Source: a virus
Virus record (IMG/VR): IMGVR_UViG_3300007276_000234
Span: 1 to 27,471 of that record
Direction: 5' to 3' (one strand)
Length of the DNA: 27,471 nucleotides
The notes beneath the pieces were generated by a model. That model was not told the DNA's origin, ran no database searches, and saw only the letters and a program-made list of their open reading frames with translations. Position 1 is the stretch's first letter. Each line of letters starts with the position of its first letter. A program made the translations under genes and the position numbers. Shown in pieces: positions 2,959-26,750 of this stretch.

Positions 2959-4793
2959 TAGTTGAATTGTCCTGTGTTGTTCATTCCTACTGATACTGTT
3001 ATACTAAATGCCCTGTCTACTGTTTGACTTTCTGCATCTGTTAATCGTAATGTAAAGTTATATGTTGTCTCACTTGTTGGAGATGGGGCTGTACCGCTTA
3101 TCACTCCAGTACTGCTGTTAAGTGATAAATTCATTGTACTTGCTGGCGTGTCAGAATTACTGGTCAATACGCTTGTAGTCTCACTAAACGCTACTGTTGA
3201 GTCTGACGATCCATCTACATCTATAGATACTGATGATCCAGCAGATACACTCCCTAAACTTCCAGCCGATGTGCTAAAGGTAGGAGCTGTACTAGCTGTA
3301 AGAATATTATTGGTACTACGCCCAGCATTACCATCTGGATTCTCTACTCGTACATGATAGCTACCAGATGCAAGCGTTACATTTACAGATAACGTTGTAG
3401 CATTAGTAAACGATACTGAGTTTGGTCTAGTAATAGATCCATCAGTTTTTATAAATTCAACAATAGGTACAGTTACAAAGTTTGTACCTGTAATATTAAT
3501 GGTTGTTGCACTATCAGGTGCAATCGTCTGACTAACATCAGCTACTGTTGGTTTTGTTTCTGTTGGTACTTCTGCAAACGATAAGTTTCCAGAACCATCT
3601 GTTTTCAAATAATAATTATTTGTGATACTAGATGGCAAAGTCAAGGTATAAGATTGAGCTGCCGAATGTGGCGGTCCTTTAATTTTTACACCATGTGAGT
3701 TATCTTCACAGTTAAGCTGTATAGTACCAGCATTAGTATTGCCTTTAACTTCCAGCATACCTGTACCATTTGGGGTAAGTATAATATTGCCATTAGTTGT
3801 AGAGGTATTAATCTCTCTGGCTTGTACATCCAGATTACCGCCTAGTTGTGGACTAGCATCTCCTACAATATCTGTAAGTCCTGTATCAATACTGGTCCAT
3901 GATGAACCATTGTAATATTTTAAATTGTTATCAGTAGAGTTATAAAATAAATCTCCCTCATCTAATGAAGATGTAGGATCAGATGAGCCAATTCTATAAA
4001 TAGCTGCAAAGTTATTAACACTAGATATATTGTCAGCTACTGTCGTTACATTAGATGCAATTCCAGCCACACTAGTAACGTTAGATGATATCCCAGCTAC
4101 TGTAGTTACATCTGAGCTGATACCAGCAACAGTTGTAACATTAGAAGAAACTCCGGCAACAGATGTAACATTAGACGAGATGCCGGCAACGGTTGTAACG
4201 TTTGAGGAAATACCAGCTACAGTCGTAACATCGCTAGCTATCCCAGCTACAGTGCCGGTGTCTACTGCTGCAAATGTCGTTGTTACATTTCCATCGCTAT
4301 CAAAGGTTAATACCTTAGATGCTCTGGTCGCCTTTGCTGGTAAACTGGTTGTTGCAGATATTGAGTCTGTGTCCAGAAGTTTTACTGAACGCTGTATATG
4401 TTGATCTAAATCTGCAAGTTTTGCATATACTTTATCTAAATCTGTGTTCAAAGATGCTACTGCAAATGCTCCTGTTGGAGAAAAATCAGATGCTCTTTCT
4501 ATAGTAATGTCACGAATAATTGTGATAATAGCTCCAGAAGAAATACCAGTAGCTCCAATGTTTACTGTACCACCAGCTCCATACTCATATGCTTCATCAC
4601 TATCAGAAGCTGCGCCTGTAATACTATATTCATTTACCGCATCTGCATTAGCGTCATAAGTGAGCAGTGTTGTGCCATTGTATACCTTTACATCATCTAC
4701 AGAAAAAAACTCAAACGGTATTGTAAACGTTTGTTGGTTTTCTGTTGCTGTATAAGCAACTCTTGGTGTATTTTTATTACTAGCTATTGTCAT
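2958..4793 (-). CDS. Tail fibre protein with T7 gp17-like N-terminus
   Basis: Residues about 8-140 match the T7 tail-fibre attachment domain in style: QQTFTIPFEFFSVDDVKV, GAIITIIRDITIERASDF, then LNTDLDKVYAKLADLDQHIQRSVKL, where a helix begins. This part should dock the fibre to the tail hub. Residues about 178-253 are a run of ten-residue repeats (VAGISSNVTT). A segment follows with GDLFYNSTDNNLKYYNGSSW, common in marine phage fibres. The C-terminal third has two Ig-like beta domains: about 415-500 (IPT/TIG-like, ending GSYHVRVENPDGN) and about 505-605 (cadherin/He_PIG-like, TGVISGTAP). No chaperone or depolymerase motif was seen. The C-terminal Ig domains may contact the host surface. Confidence 0.85.
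   Translation of the reverse strand: MTIASNKNTPRVAYTATENQQTFTIPFEFFSVDDVKVYNGTTLLTYDANADAVNEYSITGAASDSDEAYEYGAGGTVNIGATGISSGAIITIIRDITIERASDFSPTGAFAVASLNTDLDKVYAKLADLDQHIQRSVKLLDTDSISATTSLPAKATRASKVLTFDSDGNVTTTFAAVDTGTVAGIASDVTTVAGISSNVTTVAGISSNVTSVAGVSSNVTTVAGISSDVTTVAGISSNVTSVAGIASNVTTVADNISSVNNFAAIYRIGSSDPTSSLDEGDLFYNSTDNNLKYYNGSSWTSIDTGLTDIVGDASPQLGGNLDVQAREINTSTTNGNIILTPNGTGMLEVKGNTNAGTIQLNCEDNSHGVKIKGPPHSAAQSYTLTLPSSITNNYYLKTDGSGNLSFAEVPTETKPTVADVSQTIAPDSATTINITGTNFVTVPIVEFIKTDGSITRPNSVSFTNATTLSVNVTLASGSYHVRVENPDGNAGRSTNNILTASTAPTFSTSAGSLGSVSAGSSVSIDVDGSSDSTVAFSETTSVLTSNSDTPASTMNLSLNSSTGVISGTAPSPTSETTYNFTLRLTDAESQTVDRAFSITVSVGMNNTGQFN
4034..4260 (-). repeat. Tandem 30-bp coding repeat in the tail fibre
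   Basis: About seven and a half units of 30 bp encode VAG(I/V)(S/A)S(N/D)VT(T/S). The protein repeat is nearly perfect, but third codon positions differ widely between units (valine and threonine codons vary). The array is therefore old and held by protein-level selection rather than freshly expanded. It probably forms a repetitive trimeric shaft between the attachment domain and the distal domains. Confidence 0.85.
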
Positions 4794-11494: not shown

Positions 11495-13965
11495 TAGTAA
11501 TATATCTCCGTTGTTATGCCTAATAACCTTAAAGGTAAAGGTACAGACTGTGTTATCTCTATTGTAGGCTCATTACTGTAACCTAAAAAGTGTACATCTT
11601 TTTTACCAGTAAACGATGTTAAGGTTGTAGATGTATCTAAATTTGATATGTCGTTAATTAAAACATCCATAGTGTTTACTTTAACGTTATAACATGATGA
11701 CAATTCTAATATAGCTTTAGCTATTTTTCTAGGCTTGCCTGTTAATGCACCAGAGTTTGCTATCTGAGCATTAGCTGGTAGTGTTTTAATTGTAACCGTA
11801 TAATCTAATCCTATATCTATTGTAGATGTAGGACTGTCAAATACAACAACACCACCACTAGTAACAGTTCCGTCTCCATAATAATTAATATTACCTCCCT
11901 CTGTTGATCCAGATGTTCCATGTACCGTTAATCCTCTCATGTCTGGTGTTGCATTTAACCCGGACCATGTTTTAGAAGTAGTAAAAGTAAGGGCTACATC
12001 ATTAGATGTGCTAACCGCAGCATTAAGGGTTAGGTTGTATTCACCAGAATTTGATGTCGCTGATGCTGCATTTATTGTAAATACTGTGGCATTGCCAGCA
12101 AAGGTAAACTTCTCTCCTACTGAGGGAGCATTAGTAAATCCATTCACTATTACACCGGTGGAGCTACTCGTTGTGCCGTTGGTCAAGGGGGACCCATGTG
12201 GTTGGTAGCTCCCAGACAATGTTTTTGTTACGGTCATGTCTGTTGGTATATCAAAAGACGTTGATGCTATTTGCTCAAGATAATAGACAGTTGCGCTGTT
12301 TATCGTTCTTTTTACTGCAATATAAATAAAATCTGTTGTACATGCTACTGATTGGATGATTCCAGATGTTTCCCACAAAGACCATCCTGATAATTCTTGT
12401 ATCTTTTGAGTATAATAAACAGCTAATGTGCCATCAGTGTTGACCAGAAAGTATGCTTGTTCATCTCTACCAGCTTGAGATTTAATTCTATCAGCGTCTA
12501 TAGGGGTGTCTATCAAATGACTAGAAACCAAACTAATTGGTGCTGACACAAATTCTTCTGTTGATGAGTTATATGTATACTCTCTAACTGTTTTACCATT
12601 AGTTTGTACAAATATTGTTGCTCCATCTATACCTCTAGCTTTAGCTTTTTGCTGACATCCTAAAGAACTTTGCCTTATTATTTGAATATCTAGAGGTGTT
12701 ATAGGTTTTGATACTTGAGGTTTAAGAAAAAACTCTGCTGTATTAGTTAATATTTCTAATACTTTCCCAGATATCAAATGTCTGATTTCGTTTATTTCAT
12801 CTGATGCAATCTGTATTTGTACAGAGTCTGCATCATTTGCCTTGCCAACATCAAAGTTATAAAACTCTCCTACTTTACTACCAGCTATTAGATCAGGTAA
12901 ATTAGTAACTCCTCCGAAAAATAATCTTTGTTCGTGAAAAGCTATCGCTTTTGGAAAACCATTAACAGCTGATAGGACTTGTTCGTCCCAGTTTCTAGTA
13001 GGCGGGTGTCCAGATACAGTCACTCTTACACCACCTCCATCTACAGATTCTGTTGCTGCATTTAACGATCCTGTTGTAAATTGATAATGGTCATCATCTA
13101 CTACTGTAATTGTTCTGGCTCCATTTAAATTTCCAAAAGCAATACCAGCCCCATCAGCATCTTGTATTGATTCTGCTCCAGCAATAGTTATTGATGCTCC
13201 TGTGCTAAAACCATGAGCTACATGAGTTACAACTACTACTGCGCTACCAGCTGATGTTGCAAATGGATCTTCATCTAACTCCATAATTGGTACTTGTTTG
13301 AGCGTTGCTGTAACTGTAGTAGCGTTTGTATAGGCTGTAATAAGCAATTCTGCGCCCATATATCGTATTCTGGTACCAACATAGGCTGATGTAAAATAAT
13401 CGGCAGAAGTAGTACATGTGACGTTTGTATCGCCTTTTGTTACTGAATTAATATCTAATGTAATATCATCGTTAGCAAACTTAAAATAAGGTTGATAAAC
13501 TTTTTCTCCGTTTACGCTAGTTGCAAAAGAAAATTCATTTGATGTAAAGCTGGTAGCTCCTGTTCTTGTAATAATTACTGGCATAAAAGATGACTGAGCT
13601 ACTATCATAGTGTCGCCTTGTTGAGTGACTGTCATCTCTCTCATAGTAGAGGTAGTCCAAGCTTGACTAGTTATTGTTTGAAGCAATGTGCCAGCAGTTG
13701 AATAAATTTTTAAAGCTGTATTATAAAAAGCAAATATATATTCTTGACTGCCGCTAAAAATAAATGGTTCTATTCTAGCTTCGGCTCCAATATCTGCTCT
13801 AAAAAAAGATCCACCTCTTCTTTCTATCCCACCTTGATTTCTTAATATACAATTTCTAGCTGTCTGTAATCCTTTACCCCAAGTTTTGACATCGTTTCTA
13901 GATATCATGTTTGGATCTAGTTCGCCAGCTGTAAAATTAGATTGGTGTACTCGTGCTATTCCCAT
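11494..13965 (-). CDS. Tail tubular protein B / nozzle (T7 gp12-like)
   Basis: The N-terminus is typical of the podophage nozzle: NFTAGELDPNMISRNDVKTW, then GLQTARNCILRNQGGIERR, the 'GG..rR.G' signature of T7 gp12 and phage stabilisation proteins. The 823-aa length also fits. Residues about 245-320 form an inserted beta domain (HVAHGFSTGASITIAG). The middle has LFFGGVTNLPDLIAGSKVG and FYNFDVG, where nozzle proteins carry a conserved 'R.vfgG...P..v..S..g.y..F' block. The C-terminal third is a Thr/Ser-rich beta region. It forms the distal tube that seals the portal channel. The start follows the tail-A stop directly without overlap. Confidence 0.88.
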   Translation of the reverse strand: MGIARVHQSNFTAGELDPNMISRNDVKTWGKGLQTARNCILRNQGGIERRGGSFFRADIGAEARIEPFIFSGSQEYIFAFYNTALKIYSTAGTLLQTITSQAWTTSTMREMTVTQQGDTMIVAQSSFMPVIITRTGATSFTSNEFSFATSVNGEKVYQPYFKFANDDITLDINSVTKGDTNVTCTTSADYFTSAYVGTRIRYMGAELLITAYTNATTVTATLKQVPIMELDEDPFATSAGSAVVVVTHVAHGFSTGASITIAGAESIQDADGAGIAFGNLNGARTITVVDDDHYQFTTGSLNAATESVDGGGVRVTVSGHPPTRNWDEQVLSAVNGFPKAIAFHEQRLFFGGVTNLPDLIAGSKVGEFYNFDVGKANDADSVQIQIASDEINEIRHLISGKVLEILTNTAEFFLKPQVSKPITPLDIQIIRQSSLGCQQKAKARGIDGATIFVQTNGKTVREYTYNSSTEEFVSAPISLVSSHLIDTPIDADRIKSQAGRDEQAYFLVNTDGTLAVYYTQKIQELSGWSLWETSGIIQSVACTTDFIYIAVKRTINSATVYYLEQIASTSFDIPTDMTVTKTLSGSYQPHGSPLTNGTTSSSTGVIVNGFTNAPSVGEKFTFAGNATVFTINAASATSNSGEYNLTLNAAVSTSNDVALTFTTSKTWSGLNATPDMRGLTVHGTSGSTEGGNINYYGDGTVTSGGVVVFDSPTSTIDIGLDYTVTIKTLPANAQIANSGALTGKPRKIAKAILELSSCYNVKVNTMDVLINDISNLDTSTTLTSFTGKKDVHFLGYSNEPTIEITQSVPLPLRLLGITTEIYY

Positions 13966-26152: not shown

Positions 26153-26358
26153 TTGCTTAAGCTTGGCTTATAACCAGAGTAAGCAACAATGGGATAGATA
26201 GGTAGTAATCGTAAGACTGCAGTCGCTACTACTTTAAAGTTATGCGAAATAGATGCGAAGTATATGCTTATCTATCCTTAATAAATTAATGAGATAGATA
26301 GTGCAAGGAAATTGAACTATTATGCTGATAGCAAGATATTACACTCCACTATCTATCC
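26153..26358. ncRNA. Array of three long-range hairpins, candidate structured RNA
   Basis: In order: TTGCTTA (26153-26159) pairs with TAAGCAA (26180-26186); GGATAGATA (26192-26200) pairs fully with TATCTATCC (26269-26277), enclosing a second stem GTAGTA/TACTAC and the palindrome GACTGCAGTC; and GATAGATAGTG (26293-26303) pairs over 11 bp with CACTATCTATC (26347-26357). The last two units share their outer arms, so arms of one can pair with the other. No gene frame spans this area, and the array ends just before ATG 26381. RNA or DNA role is unknown. Confidence 0.5.
26269..26291 (+). repeat. 23-bp direct repeat, copy 1
   Basis: The 23 bases starting TATCTATCCTTAATAAAT are identical to those at 26350-26372, and each copy ends in AATG. 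It contains the 3' arm of the second hairpin of the array. Confidence 0.85.
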
Positions 26359-26372
26359 TTAATAAATTAATG
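26350..26372 (+). repeat. 23-bp direct repeat, copy 2
   Basis: Identical to 26269-26291, 81 bases downstream. It contains the 3' arm of the third hairpin and ends beside the GGGAGA ribosome site of the next gene. Confidence 0.85.
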
Positions 26373-26380
26373 GGAGAAAG

Positions 26381-26701
26381 ATGATGACATTGATACCAAC
26401 AGACAAGTGGATAAATCAAATACGAGTAGTACATTTTATGTATCAAGATCATAAAGTATATGCAAAGTGTAGATTTATAGATTACATAGATGATAAACAT
26501 GTATGGGAAATACAAATATATTTTAATGATGAAGCTAACTCATGGTTAGTCCATCATGTGCCATACAATTATCATCTATCATATGCTCACAGAAGTAATT
26601 CTGTAAGAAGAAACTTTAGATTGTGTATGCAAAAATATCTGGAAGATTACATTTTATTACATGAACTTGTACCAGATAGACAAAGTAGTCTACCAATATA
26701 A
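26381..26701 (+). CDS. Hypothetical 106-aa protein
   Basis: GGGAGA at 26372-26377 is three bases from ATG 26381 and six from the adjacent in-frame ATG 26384; the second is the more natural start. The protein is rich in His, Tyr, Asp and aromatics (VHFMYQDHKVYAKCRFIDYID, VWEIQIYFNDEANSWLVHHV), then a basic helix (RRNFRLCMQKYLEDYILLH). It may be a small alpha/beta domain. No known motif was found. It lies directly after the hairpin array, which could affect its translation. Confidence 0.65.
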   Translation: MMTLIPTDKWINQIRVVHFMYQDHKVYAKCRFIDYIDDKHVWEIQIYFNDEANSWLVHHVPYNYHLSYAHRSNSVRRNFRLCMQKYLEDYILLHELVPDRQSSLPI

Positions 26702-26750
26702 AAACGAATTCCTTATGGGTGTAAGGATGTAATAAAACTTGGAGGTTATT

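Follow-up and report, generated by a model that had tools for sequence, protein, structure and literature searches.

A previously undescribed family of exchangeable hairpin cassettes, apparently selected as RNA, in the early regions of a marine phage lineage

What a tandem array of hairpins with common arms and identical repeats does immediately before a small phage gene is the question raised by the window analysed here, that is, the whole 27.5-kb stretch of DNA (IMG/VR record IMGVR_UViG_3300007276_000234, positions 1 to 27,471). The window is a fragment of a short-tailed phage (podovirus), whose portal protein shares 75% identity with that of the Pelagibacter phage EXVC031P Hodr; the structural genes are carried on the minus strand, and small genes of unassigned family occupy the plus strand from ~23.8 kb. 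The array is placed between two small early genes of the plus strand (26140 and 26381), and is followed directly by a ribosome-binding site, GGGAG (26372-26376, plus strand), and by a gene of 106 aa (26381-26701, plus strand, start codon at 26381), whose relatives were found only in contigs L002, L005 and L006 and whose protein has no Pfam match. In the Hodr record, OQ414635.1 (L086), every protein is annotated as hypothetical, and the locus tags are those of EXVC032PBaldr and may be another phage's tags.

The array opens with a small hairpin, TTGCTTA/TAAGCAA (26153-26186, plus strand), whose predicted fold, taken alone, does not reach significance (z = -1.45); in L010 and L012 the element is likewise preceded by a short hairpin, with a sequence different from that of the window. 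Two cassette units follow on the plus strand, both with stems of the GATAGATA/TATCTATC type. Unit 1 (26192-26277) is closed by a perfect 9-bp stem of GGATAGATA (26192-26200) with TATCTATCC (26269-26277), which reaches ~13 bp via a G-U pair and surrounds a structured insert of 68 nt, and unit 2 (26293-26357) is closed by a perfect 11-bp stem of GATAGATAGTG (26293-26303) with CACTATCTATC (26347-26357) around an insert of 43 nt. Each unit ends in the same 23-nt repeat, TATCTATCCTTAATAAATTAATG, identical in both copies (26269-26291 and 26350-26372, plus strand) and made up of the 3' arm of the unit and the AU-rich linker TTAATAAATTAATG. An earlier sequence-only reading had described the perfect stems on common arms, the identical repeat ending each unit and a last copy adjoining the ribosome-binding site, and all of these were found exactly as described.

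The whole array folds with z = -3.64 and none of 200 shuffles was equally stable, and the separate folds of unit 1 and unit 2 gave z = -3.63 and z = -3.34, respectively. Strong folding was confined to the coding strand, the reverse strand of unit 1 giving z = -2.13. Neither an intrinsic terminator, the array being without a U-run and the 3' arm being followed by TTAATAAATTAATG, nor a sigma-70-like promoter of its own was found in the window array. The same reading had seen no coding frame and no T-arm features of a tRNA, and both points held: coding sequence was rejected because stops interrupt all six frames, the ARAGORN and Rfam-type searches of the window revealed no tRNA or tmRNA, the array has no Rfam match, and tRNA was the sole match both of Rfam 15, above the gathering threshold, in the window and 15 related loci and of a permissive Rfam search in nine loci. 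ToxI, the RNA of type III toxin-antitoxin systems, was also considered and rejected, as the inserts differ between the units and have no Rfam match, and the downstream protein belongs to no Pfam family.

A pattern built from the two arms alone, with purine/pyrimidine choices left free, matched 85 contigs in IMG/VR, many of them with two to four units, and the strict and relaxed scans gave ~98 elements; a cassette with the GGATAGATAG/CTATCTATCC arms is called a GATA unit or GATA element here. The same pattern gave 13 matches in 257 Gb of GTDB bacterial and archaeal genomes, and these were scattered and chance-like, so that a host-borne element was rejected. Among the 67 loci compared (element carriers and Hodr), 65 form a single gene-sharing group that includes the cultured Pelagibacter phage Hodr, and therefore the cassettes are regarded as characteristic of a single lineage of marine phages; the outlying pair L089 and L109 falls outside this group and was treated as chance. 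The carriers are metagenomic contigs, mostly fragments, and the sole cultured relative of the lineage that was found infects Pelagibacter HTCC1062. Hodr is without a GATA element and has an intergenic hairpin of its own at ~12827-12865, and blastn with the window region or a large array gave no match in cultured phages, though diverged relatives may escape nucleotide and pattern searches. The nearly identical contigs L002 and L003 harbor the same array as the window, L010 and L012, related through the neighbouring genes, have the same arms with different inserts, and in L006 the arms are changed to GGGTAGG/CCTACCC. No description of such cassettes was found in literature searches, and the family, with one closing stem around many inner folds, is considered new and previously undescribed.

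The constant parts of the family are GGATAGATAG and CTATCTATCC, followed by TTAATGAATT or TTAATAAATTAATG, and most members carry a TTAAT(A/G)AATT linker after the 3' arm; linkers of the TTAAT type flank the units, yet belong to the array. The insert between the arms is variable (~20-90 nt) and falls into ~50 classes, some two dozen of which occur in at least two contigs, the classes having been set by a simple similarity threshold on which the class structure depends. The inserts are modular: a class of TGGCAAAGTAGGG-CAAGT-CCCACGC recurs with a larger domain in place of the apical loop, and one inner domain is found on a different closing stem, GGGCTAAAACTTCC...TTGAAAGCGAAGT, in L137 as compared with L119 and L106, with a compensated change in the version of L106. 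Relatives of the unit 1 insert were observed in L112, L132 and L164, the last with an extra hairpin, and the unit 2 insert has none in the other loci compared, being found only in the near-identical L002 and L003. A possible H-type pseudoknot, in which A[C/G]G...C[G/C]T crosses ACTTC...GAAGT, was noted in insert class 19 (L137, L132, L106 and L119), carrying a single compensatory exchange of C-G for G-C and occurring on two different closing stems, and an apparent pseudoknot, in which CACC/GGTG crosses ACTAGC/GCTAGT, was noted in class 13 and a relative (L128, L144 and L110), where the stem in between differs from contig to contig. Kissing dimers via palindromic apical loops were not above shuffles and were rejected.

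A single GATA unit is present in 47 of the 68 arrays, and the number rises to four units, plus other modules. Outside the GATA units, the arrays contain 29 recurrent sequence groups (some overlapping), which are other hairpins on the same linker, and in three arrays (L122, L132 and L139) a genuine tRNA-Asn stands as a separate module. This tRNA-Asn (GTT) is complete and lies behind a TGAATT linker (L122:5585, L132:10126-10199 and L139:881-954); its 5' sequence, GAATTGCCTAGTG, is common to the tiny hairpin module GCCTAGTGATAGGT of many arrays, as if one had been derived from the other. Another recurrent intergenic hairpin, TCCTTA/TAAGGA, lies at the next gene junction of the window (26710-26727, plus strand), and is repeated before genes in L006, L009, L011, L106 and L142; in L092, L111, L124 and L151 it comes 3' of a GATA element, with the linker of that element in between.

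At the free positions of the arms, 121 A-T, 18 G-T and nine G-C combinations were counted, and A-C was found zero times against 7.4 expected (Fisher p = 6e-8, with copies treated as independent, a value that is optimistic because the copies are related). Since G-U is accepted yet A-C never occurs, the paired molecule is the RNA of the coding strand. Within insert classes, substitutions in the outer stem kept the pairing in a ratio of 21:2, which is biased upward because elements entered the relaxed set only if their outer nine positions paired, and inner substitutions kept it in a ratio of 19:13; five distinct compensatory double changes were also observed. Substitutions were half as frequent in insert loops (0.024) as in insert stems (0.050; p = 0.02), these statistics being approximate with related element copies. 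At the level of sequence comparison, the cassettes are shown to be RNA on the coding strand, selected for both pairing and loop sequence, and the conserved loops within covarying stems suggest a function beyond that of any hairpin. The opposite view, that the region is a non-conserved spacer or a degenerate known gene, does not agree with arms and inserts that are conserved with strand-specific covariation, nor with the absence of a known-gene match. A phage-type RNA polymerase promoter was also weighed, as the 23-mer looks T7-like by eye, and was rejected because the strand-specific pairing of the arms argues for structure instead; the RNA_pol search of the relatives was silent, and so were its controls.

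The cassettes were also found to change places. Unit 1 is present in L115 (2934-3032) with 95% identity over 101 bp, spanning the ATG just 5' of the 5' arm through the end of the 3' arm, with different flanks, and blastn of the 6.2-kb L115 against the whole window gave no match besides unit 1. The same gene pair encloses different hairpins in L006, L092, L111 and L106. A total of 18 insert classes each occur before genes of at least two unrelated families, and 11 insert classes occur before members of a single gene family. The transfer of unit 1 and the swaps at one site display the movement to unrelated flanks that marks MITE/REP-like elements, and comparison of the loci shows that whole cassettes pass from one site, gene or phage to another, and that they stand in tandem with further hairpin modules and, now and then, with a tRNA. 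At the junction before MGFDLYGMNP... (L006 841-911, compared with L092, L111 and L106), at least three hairpin inserts occur in four contigs, and an AAA ATPase family (L126:2263 and L090) follows 12 elements of eight insert classes. The most shared neighbouring gene is a Sak annealing protein/YqaJ fusion, seen in L148, and a RecE-like exonuclease and an SSB are encoded near arrays (L003). Single-strand annealing proteins recombine short, diverged homologies and have been linked to phage mosaicism (PMC5499656, PMC8093625). Shuffling of the Sak type is plausible because the constant arms and linkers offer just such homologies, across which the annealing recombinase would swap the cassettes; on this circumstantial evidence, the route of exchange probably runs through the phage's own recombinase.

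Most elements lie between co-directional early genes, along the coding strand, and many of the apparent overlaps between elements and genes involve short ORFs unlikely to be real genes. The distance from the array-final element to the start codon is typically 18-25 nt. In about a dozen contigs, sigma-70-like promoters are located 6-13 nt upstream of the stem (17 of 97 elements are promoter-preceded, against 3% at random positions), so the hairpin would be the 5' end of the transcript. The start-codon and promoter spacing, together with the coding-strand covariation, place a coding-strand stem at a 5' end or junction, as in stabilising or processing hairpins. In L113, the element at 3474 (minus strand) is followed by a gene with an ArdC N-terminal (anti-restriction) domain. 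The sequence-only reading had left three options for the array, namely a noncoding RNA in repeated copies, a leader that controls translation or a module for recombination; what stands of this is a structured RNA family that moves between phages and lies upstream of ribosome-binding sites, and what finds no support is the switching between folds that was attached to it.

We propose that the arrays are interchangeable structured RNA cassettes within early phage mRNA, each cassette consisting of a long closing stem (the 'adapter' GGATAGATAG/CTATCTATCC), a variable compact fold and a short AU-rich single-stranded linker. The cassettes would act in cis as self-folding caps and dividers wherever an early transcript begins or passes from one gene to the next, and there they may shield the mRNA and hold the adjacent downstream ribosome-binding site open, and they could perhaps be cut free at the AU-rich linkers. 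We put the chance that they are such protective or insulating caps, possibly released at the linkers and exchanged by Sak-type recombination, at about even. Tandem cassettes, with up to four GATA elements and further modules, exceed the need of one junction and count against the cap reading, and the conservation of the loops and the diversity of the folds exceed the needs of a purely mechanical cap, which hints at insert-specific binding partners. The main rival, possible and clearly short of an even chance, builds on such features: the linkers would be cut, and the folds would act in trans as small RNAs whose binding partners in early infection are proteins or RNAs of the host or the phage, for instance by serving as decoys against defence or against nucleases of the host, with the common stem as a handling or processing tag only. 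The many distinct inserts with conserved loops, the conservation of inserts even where neighbouring genes change, the genuine tRNA-Asn in arrays on the same linker and the array upstream of the ArdC-like anti-restriction gene in L113 all favour it, whereas the fixed short spacing to the start codon and the coding-strand orientation fit cis elements, and no processed RNA is known. Extended further, this rival would describe an RNA cassette pool, with dozens of small folds in a common stem adapter, reshuffled among sites and genomes of the lineage and each acting in trans at the start of infection, for which we would allow roughly one chance in four; that the targets are host or defence components, like those of shuffled anti-defence genes, is held just as tentatively.

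The remaining explanations are less probable than either the cap reading or the trans-acting RNAs. Selfish or neutral recombination modules, in which mosaic joints are kept by frequent recombination of the arms and the RNA brings no benefit, would fit the clear transfer of units, the swapping at one site and the Sak/YqaJ recombination genes nearby; the strand is irrelevant to hairpins at the DNA level, however, and the G-U pairs without A-C, the compensatory changes and the conserved loops point to selection on RNA, which makes this explanation improbable. A riboswitch that senses a ligand and serves the downstream gene is suggested by the 5' position and by inserts that are compact, perhaps pseudoknotted, and conserved in their loops, but it has no Rfam riboswitch match, and a gene-specific riboswitch is rejected because insert class and gene family are uncoupled, as the 18 and 11 classes above attest; we consider it very unlikely. 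The alternative-fold switch of the sequence-only reading, a two-state device formed by cross-pairing of the identical arms, is given hardly any weight. The arms of both units are indeed mutually complementary, but the cross-paired fold is minor (-56.9 against -60.8 kcal/mol for the local hairpins, 3.9 worse, with a pair probability of ~0.2%), each unit folds alone, and 47 of the 68 arrays hold a single GATA unit.

The phages of Pelagibacter (SAR11) rank with the most abundant marine viruses, and their early regions are almost wholly unannotated. A widespread pool of RNA cassettes, if true, would be an overlooked component of the takeover of cells by pelagiphages, and the family offers a rare case in which the exchange of interchangeable RNA folds, not genes, can be traced site by site, as well as several dozen recurrent RNA modules open to direct testing. 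Among known systems, phage tRNA clusters hold extra stable RNAs, such as RNAs 1 and 2 of phage T4, and resemble the present arrays as structured RNAs in an early or middle transcript, sometimes with real tRNAs (here tRNA-Asn), whereas the cassettes are mostly not tRNAs, share one closing stem around many inserts and are shuffled singly. The intergenic processing and stabilising hairpins of phages, such as the RNase III sites of T7 and the gene 32 leader of T4, are likewise stable coding-strand stems at junctions or 5' ends, just upstream of ribosome-binding sites, but the cassettes differ in their arms conserved across phages, exchangeable inserts, conserved loops and tandem arrays. REP/MITE-type elements are palindromic mobile elements, similar as short inverted-repeat units in intergenic sites that turn up at new places, and different in that selection on the cassettes acts on the RNA strand. 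The manA and wcaG motifs (Weinberg et al. 2010, PMC2864571) are structured RNAs located in what may be the 5' UTRs of genes in marine phages, and share this setting with the cassettes, although they are single fixed motifs before particular metabolic genes and the cassettes are many folds on one adapter, independent of the gene. Finally, as in the mosaicism ascribed to annealing proteins (PMC5499656, PMC8093625), the arrays have a gene for a Sak-type protein close by, but the unit exchanged here is an RNA cassette of 45-110 nt and not a gene.
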